From Verrucomicrobiota bacterium (lineage in GTDB: Bacteria > Verrucomicrobiota > Kiritimatiellia > Kiritimatiellales > Tichowtungiaceae), in assembly GCA_016342445.1 (NCBI GenBank), contig JAEIOF010000005.1, positions 1-41,350 on the forward strand: DNA of 41,350 bases. The letters run 5' to 3'. Shown here piece by piece: positions 6,081-39,163 of the stretch; within the stretch, counting starts at the first letter, position 1, and every line of letters starts with the position of its first letter. Below the pieces are notes generated by a model. That model was given only the letters and a program-made list of their open reading frames with translations. It did no database searches and was not told the origin of the DNA. The position numbers and the translations under genes are program-made.

Positions 6081-6127
6081 TTCCAAACCTTGGAAAAAAA
6101 TATGACCGGAGTTTCCAAACATTGGAA
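6081..6127. repeat. Iterated palindrome pair: TTCCAAACCTTGGAA (6081-6095) and TTCCAAACATTGGAA (6113-6127)
   Basis: Exact matches to TTCCAANNNTTGGAA, start-to-start 32 bp, intergenic. Confidence 0.95.
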
Positions 6128-6216
6128 AAAACCGTCTCAAACGAGACCGATAGTCTGTAGATGGATAGTCTACATCCGCGTTTAATCATCCAACGTCCGC
6201 AAGGAGGGCACACCCC

Positions 6217-6501
6217 GTGAACATCGAAAAAACATTCGGCGAAGAATTGCAGAAAATCCGTAAAGAAAAAGGGCTCTCTCAGGAGCAACTCGGCGGAACA
6301 CAAATTAATCTTACTTCTCCGGTTATAGAAAACTGTTTCCGTTGCTGTTGTGAGATGGAGTCAGAAACGGTTGAGGTAGTTTGTCCTTTTTGCGGGGAAG
6401 TAAATATCTGTTGCCATGCATGTGAGGAGTGGATCGAAGAGAGAACGGAAAATTGTTATCGATGCGTCAATGGATCCTGTTTTGTTGAGGGCGGGCATTA
6501 G
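6217..6501 (+). CDS. Small protein: truncated XRE-type HTH N-terminus joined to a Cys-rich (zinc-ribbon-like) segment
   Basis: GTG start after AAGGAGGGCAC; FGEELQKIRKEKGLSQEQLG, then CFRCCC...CPFCGEVNICCHAC...CYRCVNGSC. Confidence 0.65.
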   Translation: MNIEKTFGEELQKIRKEKGLSQEQLGGTQINLTSPVIENCFRCCCEMESETVEVVCPFCGEVNICCHACEEWIEERTENCYRCVNGSCFVEGGH

Positions 6502-6516
6502 TCGGGTGTGAATATT

Positions 6517-6573
6517 TTCCAACCATTGGAAAAAACGGACTCGAAACCGAAACCGCTTTTCCAAACCTTGGAA
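6517..6573. repeat. Iterated palindrome pair: TTCCAACCATTGGAA (6517-6531) and TTCCAAACCTTGGAA (6559-6573)
   Basis: Exact matches, 42 bp apart, immediately upstream of the methylase core. Confidence 0.95.
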
Positions 6574-6606
6574 AACCGGTATGAAGAACGCCAACTTCAG
6601 GGTGGT

Positions 6607-7695
6607 ATGACAGCAAGCAAAATGAAATTAACAGCAATCGATCTTTTTTCCGGGGCGGGGGGCTTTTCCTTGGCGGCGAAAAAGGCGGGCTTTCAGGTGC
6701 TTGCTGCAGTCGAATATGACAAGTGGGCGCAGGAAACGTATAAGCACAATTTCATTAAAGGCCGCAAAAACCCGCCGAAACTGTATGGCGACATTTGGGG
6801 GGTAGACCCGTCGCAGGTTCTTAAGGATGTTGGGATTAACGCTGGCGAGTTAGATGTTCTTGTGGGGGGGCCGCCGTGTCAGGGATTTTCATCGCATCGA
6901 CTTAATAATGCCGGGGTGGATGATCCTCGCAACAACTTACTTCTTCGGTATTTCGATTTTGTAAAGCAGCTGCAACCAAAGGTATTCGTTGTTGAAAATG
7001 TCTCGGGGATGCTTTGGGCGCGTCACAAGCCCTATGTCGACCGGTTTAAAAATCTGGCCAAACGGAATGGCTATCAGATTATCTCGGGAGAACCGCAACT
7101 GATTAACGCCCGTGACTTCGGCGTTCCGCAAAACCGGAAGCGTGTATTTATCTTAGGTGCGCGCTCCGATATTAATTTGCCGGATGGGTTTGAGTGGCCG
7201 CCAAAGGCGACGCATTTTGATCCGAATTCAGATGAGGTAAAAAAAGAAGGTAAAAAGAAGTGGGTTCCGGCTTCTACGGTTTTTGGAAAGTCGTTGGATT
7301 CTAAAGACCCCAACAACATCCACATGATTCCTGGGTCGGATATGCTACAGCGGTTTAAGGACACGCCGCTGAACGGCGGCAGTCGGGCAGACAGCGGGCA
7401 TGTACTCACTTGCCATGAAGATCACACTGGGCACAAAGATGTATACGGGCGCATTGACCCGAACAAGTCTGGGCCGACTATGACGACGGGTTGCATCAAT
7501 CCCTCTAAAGGCCGGTTTGTTCATCCGACAAAACATCATGGCATCGCAGCCCGACACGCAGCGCGGTTTCAAACCTTCCCAGATGATTTTTATTTTGAAG
7601 GCGGTTTAGGAAGCACCGGAAAGCAGATAGGAAACGCCGTTCCGGTTATGTTGGGGCAACACATCTTACAAGCATTAGCAATGGAGGGACTGTAA
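6607..7695 (+). CDS. DNA (cytosine-5-)-methyltransferase, Dcm type (possible upstream GTG start at 6508)
   Basis: AIDLFSGAGGFSLAAKKAGF, VLVGGPPCQGFSSHR, FVVENVSGM, ARDFGVPQNRKRVFILG, RFQTFPDDFYFEG, KQIGNAVPVMLG. Confidence 0.96.
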   Translation: MTASKMKLTAIDLFSGAGGFSLAAKKAGFQVLAAVEYDKWAQETYKHNFIKGRKNPPKLYGDIWGVDPSQVLKDVGINAGELDVLVGGPPCQGFSSHRLNNAGVDDPRNNLLLRYFDFVKQLQPKVFVVENVSGMLWARHKPYVDRFKNLAKRNGYQIISGEPQLINARDFGVPQNRKRVFILGARSDINLPDGFEWPPKATHFDPNSDEVKKEGKKKWVPASTVFGKSLDSKDPNNIHMIPGSDMLQRFKDTPLNGGSRADSGHVLTCHEDHTGHKDVYGRIDPNKSGPTMTTGCINPSKGRFVHPTKHHGIAARHAARFQTFPDDFYFEGGLGSTGKQIGNAVPVMLGQHILQALAMEGL

Positions 7696-9329
7696 TGTCA
7701 GATGAAACACCGCTTTTACTACACTTTGAACCGCGAACCATCGAGCACCTTGGGGTGCGTATGTATTCCACACTTCCGCCAGCACTGGCAGAGCTTGTTT
7801 CGAATGCGTATGATGCTGATGCGGAAAGCGTACAAATAGAACTCGGTCAAAAAAATAACGAACCCCTCTTTATAAAAGTGACGGATGATGGCTTCGGAAT
7901 GAGCGCCGACGACATTCGGAATAAATTTTTGGTAATAGGTCGAAATCGAAGGGTTGATGATGGTGATGAGCCCTCACCAAAGTTTAAGCGTCGGGCAACG
8001 GGGAAAAAGGGGCTAGGGAAGCTGGCGCTATTTGGTCTAGCTAAAACGATTTCGATTACTACAAGAAAAGCTGGGTTTGAAAATACGTTCAAATTGTCCT
8101 GGAACGATCTGATGAGTTCCTCGGGACAATATAATCCCGCATGGTTGGTGAAAAATCAGCCCACAACCGGGCGGACCGGTACGGAAGTCATATTGGAGGA
8201 TTTGAAAAGAAAATCACCGTTTGATTTGGATGCGATTTCCAAAAGCTTGGCGCTGATTTTTTACTTCGATGACAACTTTAATCTGACAGTAAAAGACAGT
8301 CAGGGAAATGTCGCTATTGTCAACAATGCGCAGAAATACACAGCCATTACAGAAGAGTTTTCGTGGGATGAGAAGCTCTGGCTTCCTGATGGCTGTGAAT
8401 ATCCAAATTTGAAGGGAAAAATTATTTCTGCGGAAACGCCCATTTCGCCGCGGTCGGGACTTCGGGGCATTACGCTTTTTTCGCGAGGCAAGCTGGTTAA
8501 TGCTCCTGAATTTTTTTCAGAAAGCACATCGAGCCATTTTTACCAATATGTAACTGGATACATCATCGCTGATTTTATTGACGAACTTCATGAGGACGTA
8601 ATCTCAACGAATCGTCAGGCCGTTGATTGGGAACATCCGGATATGGTTAAATTCAGAAAGTTTCTTTCTGCGACGGTAAGCCAGGTCAATGCATCGTGGC
8701 GTGCGAAGAGGAAAGAAAAAAAAGATGAGGAAGTAAAAGAAGCAACGGGAGGGATTGATAGGGAAGATTGGCTATCAAAACTACCCGAAGACACCAAAAA
8801 CAGCGTAGCCGCTATTCTGAGTAGCCTTGGGGGCGACGAAGCTATAGGGAAAATCGCGCCAATAATTAAAGAGCTCCATAATATTGCGCCAGAATATCCG
8901 CAACTCCACTGGCGGCATTTACATGTCAGTATAAAAGATAGAATCCGCGTTTATTATGAACAGAGTCAGTACGGGTTGGCTGCACGCGAGGGCGTCCTTA
9001 TTTATCTTGAAGTATTGAGAAATTTGACCGGACTAAAAGAAGATGGCCGGCCATTGGTTGATGGATTGTTCACATATAACAAAAATAAAACCCCGCCCGG
9101 CCTCCCTAAAATTCAGCTGAACAGCTTGCAAACCGAGAGTGAGGAAAATATTCAAGACGGACATTCTCACTTTTCAAGAGGAGTTGTAACGGGTTTTAGA
9201 AATCCAATTCAACACCGCCCGATAGACTCTGCGGTTCCTGGGCTTTTCAGCGAATTAGATTGCCTGAATATTTTAAGCTTAATTTCATATCTTTTGGGGA
9301 AACTGGACAACGCTGTTGTAAATTCGTAA
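7695..9329 (+). CDS. GHKL (HSP90/MORC-like) ATPase with C-terminal TIGR02391/Ymh-like region
   Basis: ALAELVSNAYDADAESV (N box), VTDDGFGMSADDI, GKKGLGKLALFGLA; C-term FSRGVVTGFRNPIQHRPID. ATG overlaps the methylase stop. Confidence 0.85.
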   Translation: MSDETPLLLHFEPRTIEHLGVRMYSTLPPALAELVSNAYDADAESVQIELGQKNNEPLFIKVTDDGFGMSADDIRNKFLVIGRNRRVDDGDEPSPKFKRRATGKKGLGKLALFGLAKTISITTRKAGFENTFKLSWNDLMSSSGQYNPAWLVKNQPTTGRTGTEVILEDLKRKSPFDLDAISKSLALIFYFDDNFNLTVKDSQGNVAIVNNAQKYTAITEEFSWDEKLWLPDGCEYPNLKGKIISAETPISPRSGLRGITLFSRGKLVNAPEFFSESTSSHFYQYVTGYIIADFIDELHEDVISTNRQAVDWEHPDMVKFRKFLSATVSQVNASWRAKRKEKKDEEVKEATGGIDREDWLSKLPEDTKNSVAAILSSLGGDEAIGKIAPIIKELHNIAPEYPQLHWRHLHVSIKDRIRVYYEQSQYGLAAREGVLIYLEVLRNLTGLKEDGRPLVDGLFTYNKNKTPPGLPKIQLNSLQTESEENIQDGHSHFSRGVVTGFRNPIQHRPIDSAVPGLFSELDCLNILSLISYLLGKLDNAVVNS

Positions 9330-9441
9330 TAGACTTTGGGATGGTTTCTTGGACAGCGCCCTTCTTTGTCCGCACGCCCAGTTTTTACTGGTTTCATCGG
9401 GAGAATAGATTTTGCGGGTAAATTTTCTTATGGAGGCGGAG

Positions 9442-11010
9442 ATGAGCGAGAAATGTTTATGTTGTGAACACGGAAGCCCGGTTGCGGGACGAAGAGTCTG
9501 TCCGTTGTGTGATTATGTTTTTCAAGGGAACGGTTGGGACGGCATAGATGCTCATTGGAGAGCCAAGCATGAACACATAATGCCGTATCGTCAATTTTGG
9601 GATTCCTTGTGTGAAGGTCACGGGGGCGCTCTATCAGTGGCGGTCGATCCGGAACTTTTGGAGAAGCACGCAACTTTATTGAAAGCACTACTCGATAGGC
9701 AGGAAAACTTTTTGCCCCGTATAAAATCCCAAAAACATAAAAAAATTGAGAATGGCTATTACTTCATTGGAGCAGACGGTTATCTACAAACAACTTTTTG
9801 GTCGGGCAGAAACAATAAGGAGAAGATTTATAATATTGCGTTTGTTATTTTAGCCGATGGTTCAAGTTATTTGGAGTTGGCCGGAGAAACCGAGGGGAAG
9901 TATCAATATCTTGATCTCTTGCAAAATGCAGTTGGTGAATTCCGTGTGCCTTCCAATCGTAAGCGTCGATGGATCAGGGATTTTAAAGGAGAGAACTATA
10001 TTGCGAACCTTGATTTATTTCTACGCGATGTAAAACCGAAGATAGATGATTTCCTTCAGGCAAATCCAAACGAGTATTTCCAAGCATTGGAAAAAGAAGA
10101 CTGCCAAAAGTATATCGGAAGGGTGGCAGATGCCTTTCGTGACCGGAAAGGGGTGGGTCGGGATCAATATCCCCAATACATGGACGAGCAGAATGCGGAG
10201 GGGAGCAACAAAGCCTCTTCTTACGTTCGGGCGTTGGAGTTACTGGGGCCGATTTTGGCAAAGCGCTCGGCCAAATTTTCAAAGTATTCAGACGTTTTTG
10301 CGATTCAGTCGGTGCAGCTGATAGATGAACTGTACGAATACATTCTTGAACAGCAAAACCTTGGCGATGATGGTATTTTTGAGACGGCCTATAAACCGAG
10401 TTACTGGCGCAGTCGTTTTTATTCCGCCGCACTGAAAAGCTATAAGAAGTTTTTGATCCTCCATCCTTATGAGCAGCGGCTTTGGGATTTATACAATGAG
10501 CCGGATGTCCAACCTGCGGAACTGTCGAAACGGATGGAGGCCGCAGAGGTTGATTCGCTTGAATCGTTGATTGATGATCGCGACATCGATTTTTCGACTA
10601 AAGAAGGCAAAGAGGTTTTGCGTGAAACCAAGGCGCGGGTGAATCAGGGATTTTTCCGGAAAATGCTACTCGATACCTACGAAACGCAGTGCTGTGTGTC
10701 CGGGCTCAACATCCCCGAAGTTTTGCGGGCAAGTCACATTGTCGCGTGGTCGGATGATGAAGAAAACCGCCTCAACCCAACGAATGGCCTTTGTCTCTCG
10801 GCAACTTATGATGCCGCGTTTGACCGTCACCTGATTTCTTTTGATGAAGACTACCGGATGATTTTCAGTCCAGCGCTGAAGGAGTTCTACAGCAACGACG
10901 CTTTCAAAACACAGTTCCTCGCCTTTGAGGGCAAACAGATTTCGAAGCCGAAGCGCTTCTGCCCCGATCAGGAATTCCTTCAGAAGCATCGGGACAAAAT
11001 GCCCTTCTGA
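9442..11010 (+). CDS. HNH endonuclease with N-terminal Cys/His zinc-finger-like segment; probable restriction nuclease
   Basis: CPLCDYVFQ...DAHWRAKHEH; C-term CCVSGLNIPEVLRASHIVAWSDDEENRLNPTNGLCLSATYDAAFDRHLISF (HNH_2-like); GGAGG precedes ATG 9442. Confidence 0.85.
   Translation: MSEKCLCCEHGSPVAGRRVCPLCDYVFQGNGWDGIDAHWRAKHEHIMPYRQFWDSLCEGHGGALSVAVDPELLEKHATLLKALLDRQENFLPRIKSQKHKKIENGYYFIGADGYLQTTFWSGRNNKEKIYNIAFVILADGSSYLELAGETEGKYQYLDLLQNAVGEFRVPSNRKRRWIRDFKGENYIANLDLFLRDVKPKIDDFLQANPNEYFQALEKEDCQKYIGRVADAFRDRKGVGRDQYPQYMDEQNAEGSNKASSYVRALELLGPILAKRSAKFSKYSDVFAIQSVQLIDELYEYILEQQNLGDDGIFETAYKPSYWRSRFYSAALKSYKKFLILHPYEQRLWDLYNEPDVQPAELSKRMEAAEVDSLESLIDDRDIDFSTKEGKEVLRETKARVNQGFFRKMLLDTYETQCCVSGLNIPEVLRASHIVAWSDDEENRLNPTNGLCLSATYDAAFDRHLISFDEDYRMIFSPALKEFYSNDAFKTQFLAFEGKQISKPKRFCPDQEFLQKHRDKMPF
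10078..10092. repeat. Iterated palindrome TTCCAAGCATTGGAA
   Basis: Exact match inside the HNH gene, encodes FQALE. Confidence 0.95.
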
Positions 11011-13244: not shown

Positions 13245-14456
13245 CTAATCGCCGAAGCCGTAGTTTTCGGTGACAAAATCCAGATCTTTGTCGCCGCGGC
13301 CGGAGAGGTTGACGAGGATGCTTCCGTTCCCCATCTCGTTGGCTTTTTTCATGGCGAAGGCGACGGCGTGCGCGCTTTCGAGCGCGGGGATGATGCCTTC
13401 CCGTCGGCAGAGGGTGTAGAAGGCGTCAAGGGTCTCTTTGTCGTCGGCGGTGGCGTACTGAATACGACCGGCGTCTTTGAGGTGACTATGCTCGGGGCCG
13501 ACGCCGGGGTAATCGAGGCCGGAGGCGATGGAGTAGACGGGGGCGGGTTCGCCGGCGTCGTCCTGCAAGAGGTAGCATTTGAAGCCGTGGATGATGCCGG
13601 GCATGCCGTAGGTCATGGTGGCGGCGTGGTCGCCAACGGCCGGTCCGCGGCCGAGGGGTTCGACGCCCCAGATTTCGCAGGGGTCGTTGAGGAAGGCGGA
13701 GAAGATGCCCATGGCATTGGAGCCGCCGCCGACGCAGGCGGTGACGACGTCCGGCAGGTTGCCGGTCATTTCCTGAAACTGCTCGCGCGCTTCGATACCG
13801 ACGACGCGCTGGAAGTCGCGAACCATCATGGGGAAGGGGTGCGGGCCGACGACAGAGCCGATGCAGTAGATGGAGGTTTCGGGATCGGCGAGGTAGGCCT
13901 GGAAGGCGGAGTCGACCGCTTCTTTGAGGGTTTTGAGCCCGTGGGAGACGGGGACGACGTTGCAACCGAGCAGTTTCATCCGGATGACGTTGGGATGCTC
14001 TTTGGCAATATCGATTTCGCCCATGTGGATTTCGCATTCGAGGCCGAAGTAGGCGGCGGCGGTGGCGAGCGCGACGCCGTGCTGCCCGGCACCGGTTTCG
14101 GCAATGAGCTTCTTTTTGCCCATGTGCTTGGCGAGCAGGGCTTCGCCCATGCAGTGGTTTATTTTGTGCGCGCCGGTGTGGTTGAGGTCTTCGCGTTTGA
14201 GGTAGATTTCGGCACCGCCGCAGAGTTCGGAGAGGCGCTTGGCGTGGTAGGTGGGGGTGGGGCGGCCCTGGTAGTGTTTGCGAATGGAGCGCAGCTCGTT
14301 GATGAAGTCAGCCGAGCGGCTGATTTTGAGGTAGGCTTCGTGGATCTCTTTCATGGGGCCGATGAGCTGCGGGGGGAGGAAGGCCCCGCCGTAGTCTCCG
14401 AAGTTGCCTTCGGCGTCGGGGGTGGTTTCGAGATAGGCGCTGTAATCCTTTTTCAT
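13245..14456 (-). CDS. trpB: Tryptophan synthase beta chain (copy 1)
   Basis: [57 protein letters not shown]. Confidence 0.93.
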
Positions 14457-15307: not shown

Positions 15308-15940
15308 ATGAGCGTTTTTATTAAAATCTGCGGAATCTGCTCCCGGTCCGACCTGGAGCAGATTTGCGCGTTAGGGCCCGACGCCATCGGCTTTGTCTTC
15401 TGGCCCGAATCCCCGCGCTACGTCCGCCCCGAACAGGTCGCCCGCTGGATCGACAGCATCCCCGACTCCGTTAAAAAAGTTGGGGTGTTTGTTGAGCCGA
15501 CCGCCGATTTTGTGGAAGAGACCGCCCGGATGTGCCAGCTTGACATCATCCAGGTCCATCTGATTTCCAATGATTGGAAAATGGATCGTCCGCTTTTCCA
15601 AGGGTTGGAAGCCTGGCTTTCGCCGCATATGGAAAAGGGCGTTTCGCCGGACATTCTCGCCGCGGTTCAGCCCGAACCCGCCGTGTTGCTGGCCGATTCG
15701 TTCGATGCCGACTGCATCGGCGGCACCGGCCGGCTCGGTAACTGGGAGCGGGCAATTGCCATGAAGCAGGCGCTCGGCAAACCGATGATGCTGGCGGGTG
15801 GGCTGAACGCCGATAACGTGGGCGGGGCCATCGCGGCCGTTCAGCCGTGGGGTGTCGACGTCAGCTCCGGCGTCGAAACCGTGCCGGGCATCAAAGATCT
15901 GCGCAAAGTGGAGAAGTTCATCTCCGCAATTCGTGGCTAA
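15308..15940 (+). CDS. trpF: Phosphoribosylanthranilate isomerase
   Basis: FIKICGICSRSDLEQI, PDAIGFVFWPESPRYV, VKKVGVFVEP, MLAGGLNADNV, GVDVSSGVET. Confidence 0.95.
   Translation: MSVFIKICGICSRSDLEQICALGPDAIGFVFWPESPRYVRPEQVARWIDSIPDSVKKVGVFVEPTADFVEETARMCQLDIIQVHLISNDWKMDRPLFQGLEAWLSPHMEKGVSPDILAAVQPEPAVLLADSFDADCIGGTGRLGNWERAIAMKQALGKPMMLAGGLNADNVGGAIAAVQPWGVDVSSGVETVPGIKDLRKVEKFISAIRG
15565..15610. repeat. Iterated palindrome pair TTCCAATGATTGGAA (15565-15579) and TTCCAAGGGTTGGAA (15596-15610)
   Basis: Exact matches 31 bp apart in trpF, read in two codon phases (SNDWK and FQGLE). Confidence 0.95.
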
Positions 15941-16063: not shown

Positions 16064-17266
16064 ATGAAACCGACTCAACCAGACAGACAGGGACATTTCG
16101 GCCCGTACGGCGGTATGTTCGTTCCGGAAACATTGATGGAACCCCTTAATGAGCTGACGCGCGTCTATAAGGAGGCGCGCAAAGATCCGGCCTTTAAAAA
16201 GGAACTCGACTATTATCTGCGCGAATACGTCGGCCGTCCGACCCCGCTCTATTTCGCCGAACGCATGACCCGCGAGCTGGGCGGGCCGAAAATTTATCTC
16301 AAGCGCGAAGACCTTTGCCATACCGGCGCGCATAAGATCAACAATTCGATGGGCCAGATTCTGCTCGCGAAGAGGATGGGTAAAACGCGGATCATCGCGG
16401 AGACCGGTGCGGGGCAGCACGGCGTCGCCACGGCTACGGTCGCGGCGATGTTCGGCATGGAGTGCGTGGTCTACATGGGCAAAGTCGATATGGAGCGCCA
16501 GGCGCTCAATGTCTTCCGTATGGAAAGCCTCGGGGCCAAAGTGGTCGCCGTGACCGCCGGGCAGCAGACGCTCAAAGAGGCCGTCAACGAAGCGATGCGC
16601 GACTGGGTTTCCAATGTTCGGAACACCCACTACATTCTCGGCTCCGCACTCGGCTCGCATCCCTATCCGATGATGGTGCGGGACTTCCAGAGTGTGATCG
16701 GCAAAGAGGCGCGCAAACAGATTTTGAAAGCGGAAGGCCGTCTGCCGACCGCATTGATCGCCTGCGTTGGCGGCGGGAGCAATTCGATCGGCCTGTTCCA
16801 TCCCTTTATTAAGGACGAAGGCGTCCGCATGATCGGCGTCGAGGCCGGCGGCCTTGGTATCGAAACCGGCGAACACGCCGCGCGTTTCGCCGACGGCAAG
16901 GTCGGAATTCTGCAGGGGACACAAAGTTATGTCTTGCAGGACGACGACGGACAGATCCGTCTGACCCATTCCATTAGCGCAGGGCTCGACTACGCTACCG
17001 TCGGGCCGGAACACAGCCTGCTTCACGATCTCAAACGCGCCGAGTACACCTCGGTCAACGATGTGGAAGCCGTGATGGGCTTCGATAAACTCGCGCAGTG
17101 GGAAGGCATTCTGCCCGCGCTCGAAAGCTCACACGCCGTCGCGTGGGTCATCCAAAATGCCGGGCAGTTCACTCCGGACGACCTGCTAATCATTAATATT
17201 TCCGGTCGCGGCGACAAAGATGTTCAGCAGATCGCGGCCTGGAAGGCGGAACACCGTGGCCATTAA
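16064..17266 (+). CDS. trpB: Tryptophan synthase beta chain (copy 2)
   Basis: [67 protein letters not shown]. Confidence 0.97.
16609..16623. repeat. Iterated palindrome variant TTCCAATGTTCGGAA
   Basis: One mismatch, inside trpB copy 2 (SNVRN). Confidence 0.75.
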
Positions 17267-18143
17267 AAGCATGACAGGATTCGGCGCGGGCAGTGCGCGC
17301 GCAGCCGGCGTACAGATTGCCGTTGAGCTCAGCAGCGTAAACCGCAAGCAGCTCGAAGTGGTGCTGCGTCTTCCCCAGCAACTGGCTCCCTTTGAAGTGC
17401 AGGCACAGAAGATTATTCAGAACGCGCTGTCGCGCGGGCGGATTTCCGGAACGGTCCAGCTGGAGATGCCCGCAGGGGAGATGGTTGTTGCGGTGGATCA
17501 AAAACGCGCGGCGGCTGTGGTTGAAACGTTGCGCAGCTCCGCGAAGAAGCTGAAGCTGGAAGATGATCTCAGCGCATCGATGCTTCTGAAAATTCCGAAC
17601 CTCCTTGATTTCCAACGCTTGGAAAAAAATATGCAGGCCGGATCATCCGGCTTCCAATGCTTGGAAAAAGCGCTGAACGCTGCGCTGAAAAAATTGGTGG
17701 CGATGCGTTCGCTCGAGGGCCGTGCGCTGGCGGACGATTTATCGGCCCGGCTGAACGGACTTGAAGCGATGCTTCATGAAATTGAAAAAAGGGCACCGCA
17801 GGTGCTTTCCAATCATCGGAACAAAATGTTCCAAGGGCTGGAAAAACTCGGGATTGAAAATCTCGCGCAGGACGAACGGGTGCTCAAAGAGATCGCGTTG
17901 TTCGGCGAGAAGAGCGATATCGCCGAAGAGATCACGCGGCTGACCAGTCACATTAAACAGTTTCGCGCGAGCCTGCGGTCGGCGGAGCCGGTTGGGCGCG
18001 AACTCGATTTTCTGCTGCAGGAGTTTTTGCGCGAGATCAACACGATTGGCTCCAAAGCCAATGATCTGGAGATCACCCGGCAGGTGGTGGCGTTTAAAAC
18101 CGAGCTCGAGCGCATCCGCGAGCAGGTTCAGAACGTCGAATAG
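17256..18143 (+). CDS. yicC: YicC family protein
   Basis: [11 protein letters not shown]-terminus; C-term [52 protein letters not shown] start overlaps trpB. Confidence 0.95.
17610..17666. repeat. Iterated palindrome pair TTCCAACGCTTGGAA (17610-17624) and TTCCAATGCTTGGAA (17652-17666)
   Basis: Exact matches 42 bp apart in yicC (FQRLE, FQCLE). Confidence 0.95.
17807..17843. repeat. Iterated palindrome pair TTCCAATCATCGGAA (17807-17821) and TTCCAAGGGCTGGAA (17829-17843)
   Basis: One mismatch each, 22 bp apart, in yicC, two codon phases. Confidence 0.85.
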
Positions 18144-18159: not shown

Positions 18160-18196
18160 TTCCAAGCCTTGGAAAAAAAGAATCCAAACATTGGAA
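18160..18196. repeat. Iterated palindrome pair TTCCAAGCCTTGGAA (18160-18174) and ATCCAAACATTGGAA (18182-18196)
   Basis: Exact plus one mismatch, 22 bp apart, between yicC and the hybrid kinase. Confidence 0.92.
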
Positions 18197-22019: not shown

Positions 22020-22148
22020 TTTTTTTTGCGCTTTGCGCGAAACGTTGTTGCATGAAAAAGCGTTAGCCGTTATATGATTCGTTCAGCCCAAGCGTATGCG
22101 ACTTGTTGAAGAATGGTTAGGTTAACCCAGCCCAAAAGGAGGCAGAAC

Positions 22149-22478
22149 ATGGCAGCGAAAAAAGTGGCGAAGAAAAAAGCGGTAGCGAAAAAAGCTCCGG
22201 CTAAAAAAGCAGTAGCCAAAAAAGCAGTAGCGAAAAAAGCTCCGGCCAAAAAAGCGGTAGCAAAAAAAGCTCCGGCTAAGAAAAAAGCTCCGGCCAAAAA
22301 AGCAGCAGCAAAAAAAGCTCCAGCTAAAAAAGTAGCTGCCAAAAAAGCTCCGGCTAAGAAAAAAGCTCCGGCTAAAAAAGCGGTAGCGAAAAAAGCTCCG
22401 GCTAAGAAAAAAGCTCCGGCTAAAAAAGCGGTAGCAAAAAAAGCCCCGGCGAAGAAAAAAGCCGCTAAAAAGAAATAA
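22149..22478 (+). CDS. Histone H1-like Lys/Ala/Pro-rich repeat protein
   Basis: [25 protein letters not shown]... tandem [14 protein letters not shown] units; AAAGGAGG upstream. Confidence 0.85.
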
Positions 22479-23063: not shown

Positions 23064-23719
23064 TTGATGTGCACCAGAACCGCGCACACACATCCCGCAA
23101 CCTCTGGTCCGGGACGATTAAGAAGCTTTTCCAAACCCTGGAACTTCAGGACCGCCCGGCGGCTTCGGCGATTTCAGAAAGTCTCGCCGTCTTTTGTCAG
23201 GAGCACCCTCGAATGCCGGATCACGCGCTTTCGATTTTAATGGCTCGCTCCTTTTGTGTGTCCGGCGATGTTGAAGCGGCTGAACAGATTCTGCGTCACG
23301 ACGGTGCGTACCGGCGGCATACCGGCTCGTGGCTTAATGTGCTTTCCGTTGAATATCCTTTTCCCGAACTCTATCCGCTTTTTTCCGCGCGCGTCGTGCG
23401 GCCGCTGAATCTGAATTCCGCCGGCCGCGCATGGGTGCTGGACCTCGAAAAAATCCAACTTACCGAGGCGGACCGGCATGAGCTGATTATTTTTCAGACC
23501 GTCCGCCGGTTAACCGAAAACATTTCCAATGTTTGGAAAAAAACGAACGGTCAAGGCGTTCTCGGTGTTAAAGGACTCCGACGGTTTTCTGAATTTATGC
23601 GCCCGCGCGGCGCGCAGCCTCCCGTGCAACTGTGCGGCCACCTGCACGATGTTCTTGCCCGGTGCGCCAGACAAAACGGATGGGATCACACGCCATCCGT
23701 TCTGCAGATCGACTTGTGA
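23060..23719 (+). CDS. Hypothetical protein, translationally coupled to nrdR
   Basis: ATGA overlap with the nrdR stop; long open frame. Confidence 0.6.
   Translation: MIDVHQNRAHTSRNLWSGTIKKLFQTLELQDRPAASAISESLAVFCQEHPRMPDHALSILMARSFCVSGDVEAAEQILRHDGAYRRHTGSWLNVLSVEYPFPELYPLFSARVVRPLNLNSAGRAWVLDLEKIQLTEADRHELIIFQTVRRLTENISNVWKKTNGQGVLGVKGLRRFSEFMRPRGAQPPVQLCGHLHDVLARCARQNGWDHTPSVLQIDL
23129..23143. repeat. Iterated palindrome variant TTCCAAACCCTGGAA
   Basis: One mismatch (FQTLE). Confidence 0.75.
23524..23538. repeat. Iterated palindrome TTCCAATGTTTGGAA
   Basis: Exact match (SNVWK). Confidence 0.95.
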
Positions 23720-23735: not shown

Positions 23736-25286
23736 ATGAAAAGAATCATTCCCATAGCCGCCGCTGTGCTTTCCGGAGTTCTGCTGTTTCTGAGTTTCCC
23801 GCCGTTTGAAATCGAATTTCTCGGGTGGGTGGCGTTGATCCCGCTGATCCTCGCCTGTGCGGGGGCCGCGCCGCGCCGCGCGGCCGGGCTCGGCTGGTTG
23901 GCCGGCGCGATCTTTTTTCTGGGGACGCTGTTCTGGCTTCGGCACGTTACGTGGTTTGGCTTTGTCGCCCTCGCGTTTTATTGTGCACTTTACATGATAC
24001 CATTCGCGACGTTCATTTCTCTGCGCTCTTGCGGATGGCGCAGTATGGCGCGCGTGAAAAATCTGGCGTGGATCATCGGTGCGGCGGCGGTCTGGACCGC
24101 TTCGGAATATGTGCGCGCGACCTTCATCACCGGATTTCCCTGGAACCCGCTCGGCGTCAGCCAGTACGCGCAGGGCACACTGATTCAGATTGCAGAGTGG
24201 GGCGGGGTGTACTTCCTCTCCGCGCTGATGGTGTTTGTGAATGTTGCGAGTGCCGTGACACTTCTTCAATATATTTCCGGACTGCGGAGCTCGGGCTATC
24301 GGTTACATGTTGAACTGATGAGCGCCTTGTTCCTGCTCGCCCTCGCATCCTCCTTCGGCCTCCGCGTGCTGCTCGCGGAAGAGGCTTCGTCCGAGCCGGT
24401 TCGTGCCGCGCTCATCCAGCCCAATGTTCCAGAGGTTGGAAATTGGGACGTGCCCGACCCCGAACTCATTTACGAGCGACTCGAAGAGCTCACCGACATC
24501 GCCGGACATATGCTGGATCTTGATCTCATCATCTGGCCCGAAACCGCCCTGCCCGATTGCGTTCGGTACAGCGCCCGAAGCGCCGGGCTCGTCGAACAGA
24601 CAACTCGGATCACCGGCGTGCCGCTGCTCGCCGGAAGCATGGACTATATTTGGCGACCAAGCGGCACCCCCGATTTTTATAACGGCTCCATGCTTTTCAA
24701 CACGCGCGGCGAACTGCTCAGCAGCTACTACAAGCAGCACCTCGTTCTCTTCGGGGAATACATCCCTTTCGACGGGCAGATCCCCTTCGTCAACGCCCTC
24801 ACGCCCATCGGCTCCAGCTTCACGCCCGGGCACCAGACAACTCTGTTTAAACTGCCCGGTGATCCGCGCGGGTTTTCTGTGCTGATCTGTTTTGAAGACA
24901 CGCTTCCCTATCTCGCCCGCCGCGCCGCGCAGCGCGGCGCCACTTGGCTGGTCAATCAGACCAACGACTCGTGGTTCGATCCGGACTGCGGCTCTAAGCA
25001 GCATCTGGCCAATGCTGTGTTCCGCTGCATCGAAACCCGTCTTCCGATGGTGCGCTGCACCAACACCGGCATCACCTGCCTGATCGACAAGAAGGGGAGA
25101 ATCACGCAAACCATCGCCCCGCGCGTCGAAGGCGTCCAGGCGGTCGAAGTGACACCGGCTGATCCTGCGCGCGCACCCACAATCCACACCCGTTTCGGCG
25201 ATTGGTTTGCACAGGCTTGCCTGCTCGGCAGTGTTGCGCTATTTATCGTGGCCCTGATAAAAAGAAGAAAAACGACTCATGCTTGA
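23736..25286 (+). CDS. lnt: Apolipoprotein N-acyltransferase
   Basis: FLSFPPFEIEFLGWVALIPL, FPWNPLGVSQY, IWPETALPD, LVLFGEYIPF, VLICFEDTLP, LVNQTNDSWF. Confidence 0.96.
   Translation: MKRIIPIAAAVLSGVLLFLSFPPFEIEFLGWVALIPLILACAGAAPRRAAGLGWLAGAIFFLGTLFWLRHVTWFGFVALAFYCALYMIPFATFISLRSCGWRSMARVKNLAWIIGAAAVWTASEYVRATFITGFPWNPLGVSQYAQGTLIQIAEWGGVYFLSALMVFVNVASAVTLLQYISGLRSSGYRLHVELMSALFLLALASSFGLRVLLAEEASSEPVRAALIQPNVPEVGNWDVPDPELIYERLEELTDIAGHMLDLDLIIWPETALPDCVRYSARSAGLVEQTTRITGVPLLAGSMDYIWRPSGTPDFYNGSMLFNTRGELLSSYYKQHLVLFGEYIPFDGQIPFVNALTPIGSSFTPGHQTTLFKLPGDPRGFSVLICFEDTLPYLARRAAQRGATWLVNQTNDSWFDPDCGSKQHLANAVFRCIETRLPMVRCTNTGITCLIDKKGRITQTIAPRVEGVQAVEVTPADPARAPTIHTRFGDWFAQACLLGSVALFIVALIKRRKTTHA
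24427..24441. repeat. Iterated palindrome variant TTCCAGAGGTTGGAA
   Basis: One mismatch in lnt (VPEVGN). Confidence 0.65.
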
Positions 25287-26400
25287 AGAACTAAAAGAAC
25301 AAACCGTCGCCGTTCGCGCTCGCCTCATCGAAATGCAGGGCTACCTCGGCATCGACGAAAAACGCGCCGAAGTTGCGCGCCTCGAACTCGAAGCCGCTGC
25401 ACCCGATTTTTGGAACGATCAAAACGCGGCCAATGCCAACTTTTCCGCCAGCAAAGCCGCCAAAGCGGTCATCGCCCCGTTTGAAAAAATCGAAGCGGCT
25501 CTAGATGACGCCGACGTCATGCTCGAACTCGCAGAAACCGAAGACGAAGCGGGACAGGTGCAGGCCGCTAAAGAAATTGAACAGATGCTCGATGCCTGCG
25601 AAGCCAACTTCCAAACCCTGGAAATGCAATCGCTGCTCGGTGAGCCGCTCGATTCAAAAAATGCCTACTTGAGCCTGCATGCGGGCGCGGGCGGCACCGA
25701 GTCCTGCGACTGGGCCGACATCCTCTACCGCATGTACACGCGCTATGCTGAGCGCAACGGGTTTAAGGTCGACATCATGGACTATCAGCCCGGGGAAGAG
25801 GCCGGCATCAAAAGCGTGATGTTTCAGATTTCCGGCGATTACGCCTACGGACGTCTCAAAGGCGAGCGCGGTGTCCACCGGCTTGTGCGCATCAGCCCCT
25901 TCGATTCCGCCTCGCGCCGCCACACCTCTTTCGTCGCGCTCGACGTCACCGCCGAGCTCGACGACGATATCGAAGTGGAGATTGCCGAGAGCGATCTGCG
26001 CATCGACACCTACCGCGCACAGGGGGCAGGCGGTCAGCACGTCAACACCACCGACTCCGCCGTCCGCATGGTCCATTTGCCGACCGGCATCATCGTGCAG
26101 TGTCAGGCCGAGCGTTCGCAGCACAAGAATCGCGAGAAGGCCATGAAGGTTTTGCGCGCGAAAGTCTACGAGCACGAACTCGACAAACAGAAACAGGCCG
26201 CCGAACAGTTTTACGGGTCCAAGGGAGAGATCGCCTGGGGGCATCAGATTCGTTCTTACGTTATGCAGCCCTACACCATGGTTAAAGACCATCGCACCGA
26301 TGAGCAGATCGGCAATGTGCAGGGCGTCCTCGATGGCGCCATCGATCCCTTCATCGAAGCCTATCTCAAACTCAAACAAAAAGAGGCGGCGGGCGCATGA
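25279..26400 (+). CDS. prfB: Peptide chain release factor 2, continuous frame
   Basis: SLHAGAGGTESCDWADIL, RISPFDSASRRHTSF (SPF motif), AQGAGGQHVNTTDSAVRM, QCQAERSQHKNREKAM. Confidence 0.97.
   Translation: MLEELKEQTVAVRARLIEMQGYLGIDEKRAEVARLELEAAAPDFWNDQNAANANFSASKAAKAVIAPFEKIEAALDDADVMLELAETEDEAGQVQAAKEIEQMLDACEANFQTLEMQSLLGEPLDSKNAYLSLHAGAGGTESCDWADILYRMYTRYAERNGFKVDIMDYQPGEEAGIKSVMFQISGDYAYGRLKGERGVHRLVRISPFDSASRRHTSFVALDVTAELDDDIEVEIAESDLRIDTYRAQGAGGQHVNTTDSAVRMVHLPTGIIVQCQAERSQHKNREKAMKVLRAKVYEHELDKQKQAAEQFYGSKGEIAWGHQIRSYVMQPYTMVKDHRTDEQIGNVQGVLDGAIDPFIEAYLKLKQKEAAGA
25609..25623. repeat. Iterated palindrome variant TTCCAAACCCTGGAA
   Basis: One mismatch in prfB (FQTLE). Confidence 0.75.
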
Positions 26401-27209
26401 ACATCCTGAATGAAATAATAGAAAACAAGCGGCTGGAGATCGAAACGCCCGGATATTTCCAAGCCTTGGAAGACGTGCTCGAAAATATTCCACACCTTGG
26501 AAAAAATGCACCGCCGTGCAGTGAAAAAGTTCCAACCCCTGGAAAAATCGATTTTGTCGCCGCGCTGAAAGCCGCGCCGATTGGGTTGATTGCGGAAGTG
26601 AAGCGGCGGTCTCCCTCCGCCGGGCCGATCCGAGAGCCGTTCGATCCCGCGGCCATTGCTCGCGCCTACGAAGCGGCGGGCGCACAGGCGATTTCCTGCC
26701 TGATGGATGCGAAGTATTTTGGCGGCGGCGAAGCGCAGTGGAACGAAGTTCGTGCGGCCACCGGCCTGCCGATGCTCTATAAAGAATTCGTCGTCGATCC
26801 GCGTCAGATTTTTCACGCCGAAGCGCTCGGTGCCTCCGCCGTGCTTCTCATCGTCGCCGCGCTCACCGATGATGAGCTGCGATCCTTCATACAGCTGGTC
26901 GACGCCTCCGGGATGACGCCGCTGGTCGAAGTGCATACTGAAGAGGAGATGAAACGGGCCGTTGACGCCGGTGCGCAGTGCATCGGGATTAACAATCGCA
27001 ACCTCAAAACCTTCGAAACGAAAATTGAAACCACGCTCCGCTTGCGCGAACTCGCTCCGGCGGACTGCATCTTGATCAGCGAAAGCGGAATCCGTACAGC
27101 CGATGACATCCGGACGCTTCAGGCCTCGGGGGTTTCTGCCGTCCTCGTCGGCGAAAGTCTCCTTCGTCAGCCGGATATCGGGGTGGCGGTAAAGAACCTG
27201 ATGATTTAA
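26397..27209 (+). CDS. trpC: Indole-3-glycerol phosphate synthase
   Basis: LIAEVKRRSPSAGPIRE, FVVDPRQIFHAEALGASAVLLIVAAL, IGINNRNLKTFE, LISESGIRTADDI. Confidence 0.96.
   Translation: MNILNEIIENKRLEIETPGYFQALEDVLENIPHLGKNAPPCSEKVPTPGKIDFVAALKAAPIGLIAEVKRRSPSAGPIREPFDPAAIARAYEAAGAQAISCLMDAKYFGGGEAQWNEVRAATGLPMLYKEFVVDPRQIFHAEALGASAVLLIVAALTDDELRSFIQLVDASGMTPLVEVHTEEEMKRAVDAGAQCIGINNRNLKTFETKIETTLRLRELAPADCILISESGIRTADDIRTLQASGVSAVLVGESLLRQPDIGVAVKNLMI
26457..26544. repeat. Iterated palindrome triplet: TTCCAAGCCTTGGAA (26457), TTCCACACCTTGGAA (26488), TTCCAACCCCTGGAA (26530)
   Basis: Spacings 31 and 42 bp in the trpC N-terminal region; peptides FQALE, IPHLGK, VPTPGK. Confidence 0.9.
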
Positions 27210-28972: not shown

Positions 28973-30012
28973 AAAAACGCGCAGCGGTTGGAATGAGTGG
29001 CGGGACGGATAGTTCTGTAGCGGCGGCGCTGCTGGTGGAGCAGGGCTACGAAGTGATCGGCTTGACCGCCCACATGTGGAAAGAGGGCTCGCGCTGCTGT
29101 TCCCTTGAGGACGTCACCCGTGCGCAGAAAGTTTGCGCCGCGCTTGGAATCCGCCACTACGTCGTCAACGCGCAGGATCGATTCACCGAGCGGGTTGTGA
29201 ACCCGTTTGTCGAGGAATACGTCGCGGGCCGTACGCCGTCGCCCTGTATTTCCTGCAACCAGTTCATCAAATTCGGGTTTTTACTCGACCGCGCCGCGCA
29301 GCTCGATTGCGACATCCTCGCAACCGGTCACTATGCCCGCATCGAAGAGCGCGGCGGCTCATTCCATTTGTTACGCGCCGCCGATCCCAAAAAAGACCAG
29401 ACCTATTTTCTGAGCCGCCTTTCGCAGAAGCAGCTTGCGCACATCGCCTTTCCGCTCGGCGATTGGACGAAAGAGCAGGTCAAGCAGTGGTCGACCGATC
29501 ACGATCTGCCGATCGTTCCGCGCGGCGAAAGTCAGGACCTCTGTTTTGTGGAGGCGGGAAAATATGCCGAATTCATTGAAAGCCGCGTTCCGGACGTGAA
29601 GAAAAAAGGACATGTTGTCGACGACAACGGCAAGATTCTTGCCGAGCACGAAGGCATCCACCGTTTCACGGTCGGCCAGCGCGGCGGAACCGGTGTCGCC
29701 ACCGGCGAGCGGGTTTATGTCAAACACATCGATGCGGACGGTAATAAAATCACGCTCGCCCCGCGCGAAAAAATGATGCAGCCCGAGTGCATCGTCACCG
29801 ATGCGCATTGGATCAGCGGGATGTTTCCAATGGTTGGAAAAGTGACGGTTCAGCCGCGCTACGGCCATAGCGGCGCGCCCGCCGCGATTGAAAAAATCAG
29901 CGACACTGAATTCAGCGTCCGCTTCGACGAACCGCAGTTCGCCCTCACCCCCGGCCAGGCCGCCGTCGTTTACGACGGCGACGAAGTCCTCGGCGGAGGA
30001 TGGATAAAATAA
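28969..30012 (+). CDS. mnmA: tRNA-specific 2-thiouridylase MnmA
   Basis: AVGMSGGTDSSVAAALL, GRTPSPCISCNQFIKF, ATGHYARI, KDQTYFLSRLSQKQLAHIAFPLG, GESQDLCFV. Confidence 0.93.
   Translation: MKKRAAVGMSGGTDSSVAAALLVEQGYEVIGLTAHMWKEGSRCCSLEDVTRAQKVCAALGIRHYVVNAQDRFTERVVNPFVEEYVAGRTPSPCISCNQFIKFGFLLDRAAQLDCDILATGHYARIEERGGSFHLLRAADPKKDQTYFLSRLSQKQLAHIAFPLGDWTKEQVKQWSTDHDLPIVPRGESQDLCFVEAGKYAEFIESRVPDVKKKGHVVDDNGKILAEHEGIHRFTVGQRGGTGVATGERVYVKHIDADGNKITLAPREKMMQPECIVTDAHWISGMFPMVGKVTVQPRYGHSGAPAAIEKISDTEFSVRFDEPQFALTPGQAAVVYDGDEVLGGGWIK
29825..29839. repeat. Iterated palindrome TTCCAATGGTTGGAA
   Basis: Exact match in mnmA (FPMVGK). Confidence 0.95.
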
Positions 30013-31839: not shown

Positions 31840-31854
31840 TTCCAATCCTTGGAA
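31840..31854. repeat. Iterated palindrome TTCCAATCCTTGGAA
   Basis: Exact match in the dnaE-acyltransferase gap. Confidence 0.95.
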
Positions 31855-35407: not shown

Positions 35408-35457
35408 AGGTTGGCCGCCCATTCTACCGATCCCGCCCGCCGGAAAAAGACCGAAGT

Positions 35458-35503
35458 TTCCAACCTCTGGAACTTTTTCCGTAAACCCTTCCAACCCTTG
35501 GAC
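35458..35503. repeat. Iterated palindrome pair TTCCAACCTCTGGAA (35458-35472) and TTCCAACCCTTGGAC (35489-35503)
   Basis: One mismatch each, 31 bp apart, in the dnaE upstream region. Confidence 0.8.
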
Positions 35504-35618
35504 CTGAGCTGTTGCGAAAGTGCTTTTGAGTGTTCTTAAAAGAAGCGACCCGCAGGGGAGCGGCAAAAACACCGTAAAATTTTTCCGGACAGTGGAAAAC
35601 AGAAGAGAAGGGTGCACG

Positions 35619-36335: not shown

Positions 36336-36363
36336 AAAAGCCCGGCAGAGATGCCGGGCTTTT
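36336..36363. terminator. Bidirectional Rho-independent terminator
   Basis: AAAAGCCCGGCAgagaTGCCGGGCTTTT. Confidence 0.9.
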
Positions 36364-36387
36364 GTGTGTGGCTGATGAGCTGGACTG

Positions 36388-36552
36388 TTAGCTTTTATTG
36401 GTCAGCACCAGCCAGAGGGCGTGGATCATGCCCGGCACACCAAAACAGAGCGTCAGGATGATGTTGATGACGAGGTGCTTGGTCGCCCCGACCTGCATGA
36501 AGGCCGCGACCGGCGGCAGGAAGATGGCGAGAATGATTTTTACAATCTGCAT
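36388..36552 (-). CDS. YqaE/Pmp3-family small membrane protein
   Basis: MQIVKIILAIFLPPVAAFMQVGATKHLVINIILTLCFGVPGMIHALWLVLTNKS. Confidence 0.92.
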   Translation of the reverse strand: MQIVKIILAIFLPPVAAFMQVGATKHLVINIILTLCFGVPGMIHALWLVLTNKS

Positions 36553-36717
36553 GCGAACTCTCCTGTTTTTATCCCCATCCGACCGCCGGACGGAACGCGG
36601 AAACTTTAAGAAAAACCGCCGGACTTGTCTAGGATGAAGCATCGCGCCTCAACACTTTCAATATCTGGGGAAATGGCCTACTGTTCGCCCGTAGCTGTAA
36701 AGTGAGAGGCGGATAAA

Positions 36718-38184
36718 ATGACCGTAGCGCGAACGAAAGAGTATCTAACAGGATTGCTAAAAGAGCTGCTCAAACTCCCGAAGGAAACGGAGTGGGTCGA
36801 GTTCAAGCACGATAATAAAAACCCCGAGTTGATCGGTGAGTATATTTCGGCATTGGGCAACTCAGCGGCCCTGTTGGGTAAGCAGTGCGGCTATATGGTG
36901 TGGGGTGTTGAAAATGAGAGCCACAAGGTGCTTGGAACGACGTTTAATCCGGGATCAATGAAGTATAAACAACAGGAGATGGAGAGCTGGCTCCTCCAGA
37001 AGATTGCTCCCAAAATCCACTTCATGTTTTACGAATTAGTCTTCGATGATCTGCCTGTTGTCATTTTGGAAGTTCAGGCGGCCAGCCATATTCCAGTGGC
37101 GTTTGACCAGGTTGAATACATTCGCGTTGGCTCCTATAAGAAGCGGCTGAAAGAATTTCAGGAAAAGGAGCGGGAGCTATGGCGCATTTTCGACCGGGTT
37201 CCTTTTGAAAAATTGATTGCTGCCGAGCATGTCGGTGGTGAAGAGGTGCTGAAGCTGTTAGATTATCCAGCGTATTTTGATTTGACGGAACAGCCCCTTC
37301 CGGAAGACCGTGCGGGTGTCTTAACCCGGTTGGCCGATGATGAATTGATCACAAAGAATGTTTCCGGACGGTGGGACATTACTAACCTTGGTGCGATTTT
37401 ATTTGCTCGGCAATTGAAAAGTTTTAGCCATTTGCGTCGCAAATCGGTGCGTTTAATTTTGTATCGAGATAACAGCCGGGTGGAAACGGTGCAGGAAATA
37501 GAGGGGGTTAAAGGGTACGCTTCAGGATTTAGCGGATTGATTGAAACAATAAACAACCTGCTCCCGAAAAATGAAGTGGTAGGGCAGGCATTGCGGAAGA
37601 CGGTTCCTATGTACCCGGAGTTAGCGGTACGTGAATTGGTGGCCAATACCATTATTCATCAGGATTTTGGGGTTACAGGAACTGGTCCGATGATTGAAAT
37701 ATTTTGTGATCGCATGGAGATCACTAATCCGGGAGTTCCGCTGGTAGATACCCAGCGGTTTTTGGACTCACCGCCCAGAAGTCGCAACGAGGTGTTGGCG
37801 TCATTTCTTCGACGGGTAGGGATTTGCGAGGAGCGGGGAAGCGGGATAGACAAGGTGGTTTTTCAGACCGAGCTTTACCAGTTGCCAGCGCCGGTTTTCG
37901 AACAGACGGATTTGCACACCCGGGCTATTTTATTTGCTCATCGTGACTTCAAGAAGATGAGCAAAGAAGACCGAGTCAGGGCCTGTTATTTGCATTGTTG
38001 TCTTAAGTATGTAAACCGGGAAGACATGAATAATACCACGCTGAGGGAGCGGTTTGGAATCGACACAAAAAACAGTGCGATGGTGAGTCGGATAATTAAG
38101 CAGGCGACTGATCTTGAATGGATTAAACCTTATGACGCAACTGCGGGCAGTAAAGCAATGCGCTATGTCCCCATTTGGGCGTAG
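36718..38184 (+). CDS. AlbA_2/Schlafen-like putative DNA-binding + ATPase domain protein
   Basis: ETEWVEFKHDNKNPELIGEYISALGNSAALLGKQCGYMVWGVE; AVRELVANTIIHQDFGVTGTGPMIEIFCDRMEITNPGVPL; RRVGICEERGSGIDKVV. Confidence 0.9.
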   Translation: MTVARTKEYLTGLLKELLKLPKETEWVEFKHDNKNPELIGEYISALGNSAALLGKQCGYMVWGVENESHKVLGTTFNPGSMKYKQQEMESWLLQKIAPKIHFMFYELVFDDLPVVILEVQAASHIPVAFDQVEYIRVGSYKKRLKEFQEKERELWRIFDRVPFEKLIAAEHVGGEEVLKLLDYPAYFDLTEQPLPEDRAGVLTRLADDELITKNVSGRWDITNLGAILFARQLKSFSHLRRKSVRLILYRDNSRVETVQEIEGVKGYASGFSGLIETINNLLPKNEVVGQALRKTVPMYPELAVRELVANTIIHQDFGVTGTGPMIEIFCDRMEITNPGVPLVDTQRFLDSPPRSRNEVLASFLRRVGICEERGSGIDKVVFQTELYQLPAPVFEQTDLHTRAILFAHRDFKKMSKEDRVRACYLHCCLKYVNREDMNNTTLRERFGIDTKNSAMVSRIIKQATDLEWIKPYDATAGSKAMRYVPIWA

Positions 38185-38212
38185 GAGATTTGCTTGACCG
38201 TTGTTTGATTGA

Positions 38213-38254
38213 GATGGGCGTAAATGGGCGTAAATGGGCGTAAACAGGCGTAAA
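38213..38254. repeat. 10-bp tandem repeat ATGGGCGTAA, about 4 copies
   Basis: atgggcgtaa-atgggcgtaa-atgggcgtaa-acaggcgtaa. Confidence 0.9.
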
Positions 38255-38302
38255 TGAGTATTGATTTGCTTGACTGGCGGGTGATGAAACAGAGAAAAAC
38301 GA

Positions 38303-39163
38303 ATGGCTGAGAAAATTCAACTCATTTGGAACTGCCGCGGGCGCGAAGTGGTTTGCGGGCCGCGCACGCTGGTGATGGGCATTCTGAATGCGACGCCGGA
38401 TTCGTTTTCCGACGGCGGAGTTTTCCAAGGTTTGGAAAAAGCGGTGGCGCGCGGCCTTCAGATGGTCGAAGAGGGGGCGGATATTATCGATATCGGCGGC
38501 GAATCGACCCGTCCCGGCGCAAAATCCGTCCAAACTCTGGAAGAAATAGAGCGCACGGTTCCAATCATTGGAAAACTGCGTGAGAAAACAGACTGTTTGA
38601 TCTCCATCGACACGCAGAAAGCGGAGGTGGCCCGCGCGGCGATTGCGGCGGGTGCGAATATCATCAATGATGTCTCGGCGCTGGCCGATCCGGCGATGGC
38701 GAAGGTCGCGGCGGAGACGGGTGCGGGGTTGGTTTTGATGCATATGCTCGGTACGCCGGAAAATATGCAGAACGATCCGCGTTACGACGATGTGGTTTCC
38801 AATGTTCGGAACTTTTTGGAGGAGCGCGCGGCCTTGGCGGTCGCCCGCGGTGTGGCCGAGGCGCAGATTGCGCTCGATCCCGGCATCGGGTTCGGCAAAA
38901 CCGATGCGCACAATCTGGCGCTCCTCAACGGGATCCCCGCACTGGCGGCGACGGGGCGGCCGGTGCTGATCGGCGCGAGCCGTAAGAGCTTTCTCGGGCG
39001 GCTGACGGGGCGCGAGGTGAACGACCGGCTGGCGGGCTCGCTGGCCGCCGCAACGTTCGCGGCGATGCAGGGCGCGCACATTTTGCGGGTGCACGATGTA
39101 AAGGAATCTTGCGATGCCATCGGGCTTGTGGATAAACTGCGCGCTCAAGGAACGCACGAATGA
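38303..39163 (+). CDS. folP: Dihydropteroate synthase
   Basis: VMGILNATPDSFSDGG, GADIIDIGGESTRPGA, ISIDTQKAEVARAAIAAGANIINDVSAL, LDPGIGFGKT, GASRKSFLG. Confidence 0.97.
   Translation: MAEKIQLIWNCRGREVVCGPRTLVMGILNATPDSFSDGGVFQGLEKAVARGLQMVEEGADIIDIGGESTRPGAKSVQTLEEIERTVPIIGKLREKTDCLISIDTQKAEVARAAIAAGANIINDVSALADPAMAKVAAETGAGLVLMHMLGTPENMQNDPRYDDVVSNVRNFLEERAALAVARGVAEAQIALDPGIGFGKTDAHNLALLNGIPALAATGRPVLIGASRKSFLGRLTGREVNDRLAGSLAAATFAAMQGAHILRVHDVKESCDAIGLVDKLRAQGTHE
38423..38437. repeat. Iterated palindrome TTCCAAGGTTTGGAA
   Basis: Exact match in folP (FQGLE). Confidence 0.95.
38528..38573. repeat. Iterated palindrome pair GTCCAAACTCTGGAA (two mismatches) and TTCCAATCATTGGAA (exact, 38559-38573)
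   Basis: 31 bp apart in folP, two codon phases (QTLE, VPIIGK). Confidence 0.85.
38797..38811. repeat. Iterated palindrome variant TTCCAATGTTCGGAA
   Basis: One mismatch in folP (SNVRN). Confidence 0.75.

Follow-up and report, generated by a model that had tools for sequence, protein, structure and literature searches.

The genome of a Verrucomicrobiota bacterium of the class Kiritimatiellia (order Kiritimatiellales, family Tichowtungiaceae; assembly GCA_016342445.1) carries hundreds of copies of a gapped palindrome, TTCCAA-N3-TTGGAA, and neighbouring copies are separated by whole turns of the DNA helix. The copies were noticed in positions 1 to 41,350 of contig JAEIOF010000005.1, hereafter the window, i.e., the whole stretch of DNA that was analysed, which lies in contig C165 of the 2.09-Mb draft genome G000. 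We hold it somewhat more probable than not that the copies are cooperative binding sites of a putative dimeric protein acting chromosome-wide, and a palindrome that is phased and changes as a unit between lineages points to a protein that would read the whole chromosome.

A highly iterated palindrome in helical register

In an unbiased scan of spaced palindromes with six-base half-sites and gaps of 0 to 12 bases, TTCCAA-N3-TTGGAA ranked first; in its core form in G000 it is a 6-3-6 palindrome in which the half-sites alone are fixed. The genome statistics given here combine sampled stretches with whole-genome counts. An earlier note made from the window had listed 16 exact and 12 one-mismatch copies, both inside genes and between them. 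All of them are present at exactly the listed starts, whereas dinucleotide shuffles of the window contain on average 0.00 exact copies and 0.15 with at most one mismatch. The genome-wide count that the note had asked for came to 793 exact copies against 2 for a reversed-pattern control, far above background, and confirmed a highly iterated element of genes and intergenic DNA alike. The note was less accurate on the finer structure, since it took the N3 centre to vary freely and the flanks to be unconserved apart from an extra T or A: a T precedes the site (an A follows it) in about 74% of copies in G000, but the centre is constrained, its middle base being C or G in about 98%. It also treated the sites as independent and missed two features described below, their phasing along the helix and the dialects of particular lineages.

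Neighbour pairs of sites with at most one mismatch that lie 16-160 bp apart number 109 in G000, where independent sites would give 25. All but one of these pairs, 108, come no further than 2 bp from a multiple of 10.5 bp, as 43% would by chance (p = 5e-38, the phasing p-values treating pairs within one array as independent, though they are not fully so). Out-of-phase pairs are below chance, with 1 seen where about 14 are expected. The same holds elsewhere, with 45/48 pairs in phase in genome G010 and 36/37 in genome G048. The commonest neighbour spacings are 22, 31 and 42 bp, and the phasing stays evident for gaps of 56-160 bp and is less marked for those of 161-400 bp. Within the window, the close spacings of 32, 42, 31, 42, 22, 22, 31, 42, 31 and 136 bp all lie no more than 1 bp from whole 10.5-bp turns, and below 160 bp a single gap is out of phase, the 155 bp between 17652 and 17807, which miss a whole turn by 2.5 bp.

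Constraint on the DNA and origin of the copies

Selection on the motif acts at the level of the DNA. Most copies are intragenic, at about 0.1-0.3 per kb, and the density between genes exceeds that within genes 3.5-fold in G000, 3.9-fold in G010 and 7-fold in G048, figures that are approximate because genes were called with a simple longest-open-reading-frame (ORF) picker. Intragenic sites of G010 are spread over the three reading frames (29/30/28). Shuffling synonymous codons with the amino acids kept fixed gave an expectation of 3.0 sites in G000 and 1.8 in G010; the observed numbers are 103 and 68, an excess of about 30-fold. A repeat at the protein level, an FQxLE peptide, was rejected because the motif occurs in every frame and between genes as well, and because the synonymous shuffles fall about 30-fold short. 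In the closed 3.88-Mb genome G010, sites at 40 sampled places are spread round the chromosome and show no origin/terminus trend or polarity; an origin- or terminus-related system of the MatP, SlmA or Noc type was dismissed on this lack of polarity.

The copies arose in place. When the window is compared with its relatives L019 and L020, the sites mostly lie in ungapped aligned stretches and differ by base substitutions, and hence did not enter as inserted units; the alignments are gapped and uninformative for yicC at 17610-17666 and, against L019, for the last two sites of the trpC cluster. An insertion element is thereby ruled out, and the view of the earlier note that these are not copies of one larger mobile repeat holds in the window's genome. 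In 21 kb of L019 exact copies are absent but near-copies remain, and several of these deviate at synonymous positions alone and look like decayed sites. By contrast, the site-rich relative L021 (Pontiellaceae bacterium B1224), whose record does not label it a metagenome-assembled genome, has 7 exact copies in 21 kb. REP/BIME and the Rickettsia palindromic elements are likewise dispersed palindromes in many copies, the rickettsial kind also occurring inside genes, but those are inserted units, whereas here the alignments to L019 and L020 show point substitution, mostly without change of length. In the distant genome G057, some arrays share longer flanks and lie within dispersed repeats (L155:8430-8620, L158:1950-2400, L162:1-260, L163:7900-8150 and L166:9150-9600), near which another element, similar to AACTTCCAAATCCCGCC...GGCGGGAGAAGTTT, is found repeatedly. 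An ORF of genome G417 that resembles a REP-associated tyrosine transposase (L197:1943-2992; labelled without a family search) lies near a motif array.

Lineage dialects and distribution

Exact copies range from 62 to 778 per genome in the same genus, from 0 to 1177 in the same order and from 0 to 1339 in the class Kiritimatiellia, while other Verrucomicrobiota families have 0 to 5; high counts are thus confined to the class, in which they are patchy even within genera. The closest prfB relatives of the window are Pontiellaceae and Kiritimatiellales assemblies. Arrays of at least three sites with 31/32-bp steps and unlike spacers occur in 32 of the 146 class genomes. Only three viral contigs have close pairs, some of these contigs being apparently Mu-like; phased arrays on apparently Mu-like contigs lie at L283:650-767 and L285:10589-10634.

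Some lineages use a different spelling of the motif. An unbiased scan of genome G225 returned TTCCGA-N3-TCGGAA. Counted class-wide, this form is scarce outside family f18, with 27 copies at most, and iterated within it, with up to 364. When any spacer of 1 to 30 bases was allowed, the f18 pairs are, among those listed (G435, G442), all 31 or 32 bp apart, and genome G069 has 168 such pairs among its 364 dialect sites. Genome G139, with zero TTCCAA copies, has TTCCAY-N3-RTGGAA with one pair 31 bp apart (five sites only). In the dialects both arms are altered together, and the N3 centre and the 31/32-bp step are retained, as expected for one dimeric reader whose specificity shifts. The outer core shared by the forms, TTTCC-N7-GGAAA, is 40- to 200-fold over control in most f20 genomes and is also raised in some genomes without the TTCCAA form (G278, G096); it is near background in f11, f21, f32, f23 and others. 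Outside the class, in G078, G087, G092, G098, G114 and G133 of families f44 and f50, the outer core is modestly above the control, with 50-72 copies against 0-8, which is perhaps another dialect or perhaps an effect of composition. G225 also has a 215-bp tandem repeat (L275:1622-2140) with two other palindromes, CCCGTG-N6-CACGGG and CACTCG-N8-CGAGTG.

The dialects provide natural pairs of genomes in which the specificity of the reader and its sites would have changed together. The reader can therefore be sought by covariation, and a change in the code of a global DNA-binding protein becomes testable.

Proposed mechanism and alternative explanations

We hypothesize that a sequence-specific DNA-binding protein would occupy each TTCCAA-N3-TTGGAA as one dimer, and that neighbouring dimers would touch, or would wrap or loop the intervening DNA, only if their sites are on the same face of the helix. 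Such a need would lead selection to hold neighbours at whole turns, most often two, three or four. If the specificity of the protein drifted, both half-sites would follow and give rise to dialects, and if the protein were lost, the sites would decay. We infer a dimeric protein, cooperation between its dimers and an architectural role in the nucleoid instead of a regulon. About 800 near-identical gapped palindromes in helix register, many in housekeeping genes, suggest that their reader would have to matter chromosome-wide. We offer only tentatively the more far-reaching view that the Kiritimatiellia have a chromosome-organising protein which uses hundreds of phased palindromes to wrap or stitch their DNA, a sequence-specific, nucleosome-like packaging whose site code would have been rewritten genome-wide more than once. 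We rate the phased palindrome as new as a genomic phenomenon, cooperative DNA binding itself being a known principle; on a stricter view it could belong among the highly iterated palindromes. A literature search on the TTCCAA/TTGGAA palindrome and on Kiritimatiellales or Pontiella repeats found no report of the motif, in agreement with the earlier note, which could name no known system for it, and we found nothing on the nucleoid of the class Kiritimatiellia, whose genomes are mostly metagenome assemblies.

Several points speak against chromosome-wide cooperative binding. The patchiness within genera lacks an explanation if the protein is important, the gene boundaries rest on the simple ORF picker, and probable promoter regions (those of dnaE, the methylase and lysA-like genes) contain some of the clusters, leaving room for gene regulation. 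In addition, the two candidate readers examined, an Lrp/AsnC protein and an XRE regulator, failed or were disfavoured. The XRE regulator lies beside a four-site array (L110:11677-11949) and has no match in the site-rich genomes G003, G018 and G048. NrdR was considered since nrdR lies in the window and the spacing of NrdR boxes is likewise three or four turns; the protein is, however, widespread in bacteria and has a DNA-binding ribbon of canonical appearance, and it was set aside.

The main rival is a very large classical regulon, in which a global transcription factor would act at paired promoter sites and the intragenic copies would be tolerated or weakly functional. The intergenic enrichment of sites agrees with it, phased operator pairs are typical of cooperative regulators, and the inverted repeats bound by Lrp-family dimers measure 13-17 bp and are set two or three turns from each other (PMC2995911). 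Phased clusters are also found directly upstream of lysA-like genes in G000 (L108:15787-15927), in G003 of family f1 (L190:1501-1578) and in G148 of family f20 (L184:297-425), a coincidence that could possibly be due to chance given the number of comparisons. However, most copies are intragenic and far exceed the synonymous shuffle, sites are not concentrated at divergent promoters, and their neighbours are housekeeping genes without a common theme, which makes the regulon unlikely.

An improbable alternative is a DNA uptake signal, in which transformation would prefer motif-bearing DNA and recombination would spread the copies. Compatible with it are the hundreds of genic and intergenic copies, their gain through substitution, the dialects and the patchy losses. 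The consulted part of an account of the DNA uptake sequences (DUS) of the Neisseriaceae (PMC3630211) describes copies that number from hundreds to thousands, both genic and intergenic, eight lineage dialects and, in Simonsiella, dyad-symmetric pairs; that part describes no helical phasing, which is the dominant feature here. Over-representation with dialects is thus common to both, but uptake sequences would be expected to be independent sites, and 108 of the 109 pairs in G000 are in phase; a drive by uptake would predict neither the helical phase nor the 4-fold clustering of neighbours. The uptake protein ComEC occurs in nearly all these genomes (139 of the 146 of the class), with or without sites, and being nearly universal it does not discriminate.

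Published site geometry of the Lrp family (PMC2995911, PMC10201364) led us to test the conserved Lrp/AsnC protein of the class as the reader and as a nucleosome-like wrapper, an identification that we disfavour as quite improbable. The sites of this family (FFRP) are clusters of 13-17 bp inverted repeats on one helix face with two- or three-turn spacing, and the family also wraps DNA (PMC2995911, PMC10201364); site size, inverted-repeat form and spacing all agree with what is seen here. Those clusters are, however, promoter-sized and degenerate, whereas here hundreds of near-perfect sites are found chromosome-wide, many of them intragenic. The protein was found in 123 of 146 class genomes, in most as a single copy, genomes with triple arrays are among those positive for PF01037, and families f3 and f23 lack both Lrp and the motif. 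On the other hand, residues of its recognition helix vary freely within one dialect (EVTACIADYE, EVKKQIADFE, EVERKIADYE, EVRKRIAEYE), no Lrp is detectable in two f18 genomes that are, however, only 85-88% complete (G426 and G442, with 135 and 70 dialect sites), and many Lrp-bearing genomes are without the motif.

We consider very improbable a mutational or repair bias like that of the cyanobacterial highly iterated palindrome HIP1, in which a methyltransferase and mismatch repair would create and keep the palindrome. HIP1 (GCGATCGC; Elhai 2015, PMC4390886) has eight bases without a gap and is linked to orphan methyltransferases; it is iterated, patchy among relatives and replaced in some lineages by alternate HIPs, each matched by a methyltransferase (PMC4390886). 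The earlier note had named it the closest conceptual precedent, of a different sequence, and the likeness of a palindrome far above chance in and between genes, with alternates, stands; what the note overlooked, the phasing and the dialects, gives the best hints at a mechanism and sets the present motif apart. Instead of GCGATCGC or another uninterrupted GC-rich palindrome, the motif here is 6-3-6, TTCCAA-N3-TTGGAA, with fixed half-sites alone and helically phased neighbours. A C5 methylase gene is present in the window, but it lies in an apparent restriction island, twelve fixed bases around N3 are longer than the usual methyltransferase target, and such a bias predicts no helix phasing. From its length, the motif is also unlikely to belong to a restriction-modification system. 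The motif departs from HIP1 and from DUS in a defining or an expected feature of each, and by its site geometry it could be counted among the Lrp operators only provisionally. Hairpins in RNA or single-stranded DNA, as terminators or mobile palindromes of the REP/RAYT type, are scarcely credible: each palindrome is able to form a short hairpin between runs of A and U, a hairpin would also need the paired half-site changes of the dialects, and some G057 arrays lie within longer dispersed repeats, but the copies arise by substitution in conserved genes and in every frame, a hairpin does not require a 10.5-bp spacing to its neighbour, an Rfam search of the sites matched no family (only tRNAs were found), and intrinsic terminators lie at gene ends with a G+C-rich stem and a T run, whereas most copies here are intragenic with A/T-rich stems.

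Sites and neighbouring genes in the window

The first sites of the window are two exact copies at 6081 and 6113, 32 bp apart (6081..6127), just upstream of a nuclease-like gene. Two further exact copies at 6517 and 6559, 42 bp apart (6517..6573), precede the likely start of the C5 DNA methylase gene, and one exact copy lies inside an HNH-domain ORF (10078..10092). The A+T-richer island at 6508-11010 (GC 0.44-0.48) encodes the C5 DNA methylase, a HATPase/Hypoth_ymh protein that matches restriction-enzyme models and the HNH protein, apparently a restriction-modification-like defence set.

Exact copies at 15565 and 15596, 31 bp apart (15565..15610), occupy two different reading frames of a trpF-like gene (a label read from the sequence, without a family search) and differ from L019 by base changes only. 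A one-mismatch site (16609..16623) is found inside a trpB-like gene. Two diverged trpB-like genes, 13245-14456 and 16064-17266, lie on opposite strands on either side of the trpF-like gene and cross-match in the L019 comparison. The yicC gene contains two exact copies at 17610 and 17652, 42 bp apart (17610..17666), and two one-mismatch sites at 17807 and 17829, 22 bp apart (17807..17843); between yicC and a sensor-kinase-like ORF an exact site at 18160 is followed after 22 bp by a one-mismatch site at 18182 (18160..18196).

Further along are a one-mismatch site (23129..23143), an exact site (23524..23538), a one-mismatch site inside an lnt-like ORF (24427..24441) and another inside prfB (25609..25623), which is exact in the relative L020. 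The 5' part of a trpC-like gene holds a phased cluster of an exact site at 26457 and one-mismatch sites at 26488 (after 31 bp) and 26530 (after 42 bp; 26457..26544), all three of which recur in L020. Exact sites lie inside an mnmA-like ORF (29825..29839) and just past the end of a dnaE-like ORF on the minus strand (31840..31854), upstream of whose likely start two one-mismatch sites at 35458 and 35489 are 31 bp apart (35458..35503). Inside folP, which encodes a pterin-binding enzyme, exact sites at 38423 and 38559 are separated by 136 bp, i.e., 13 turns (38423..38573), and a one-mismatch site follows (38797..38811).

Two consecutive and similar response regulators with sigma-54-type AAA domains, as read from their sequences, are encoded at 1752-3152 and 3793-5190. 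A short protein of AKKAPAKK repeats (22113-22478), adjoining nrdR, resembles the tail of histone H1 and is possibly a non-specific DNA-binding protein.

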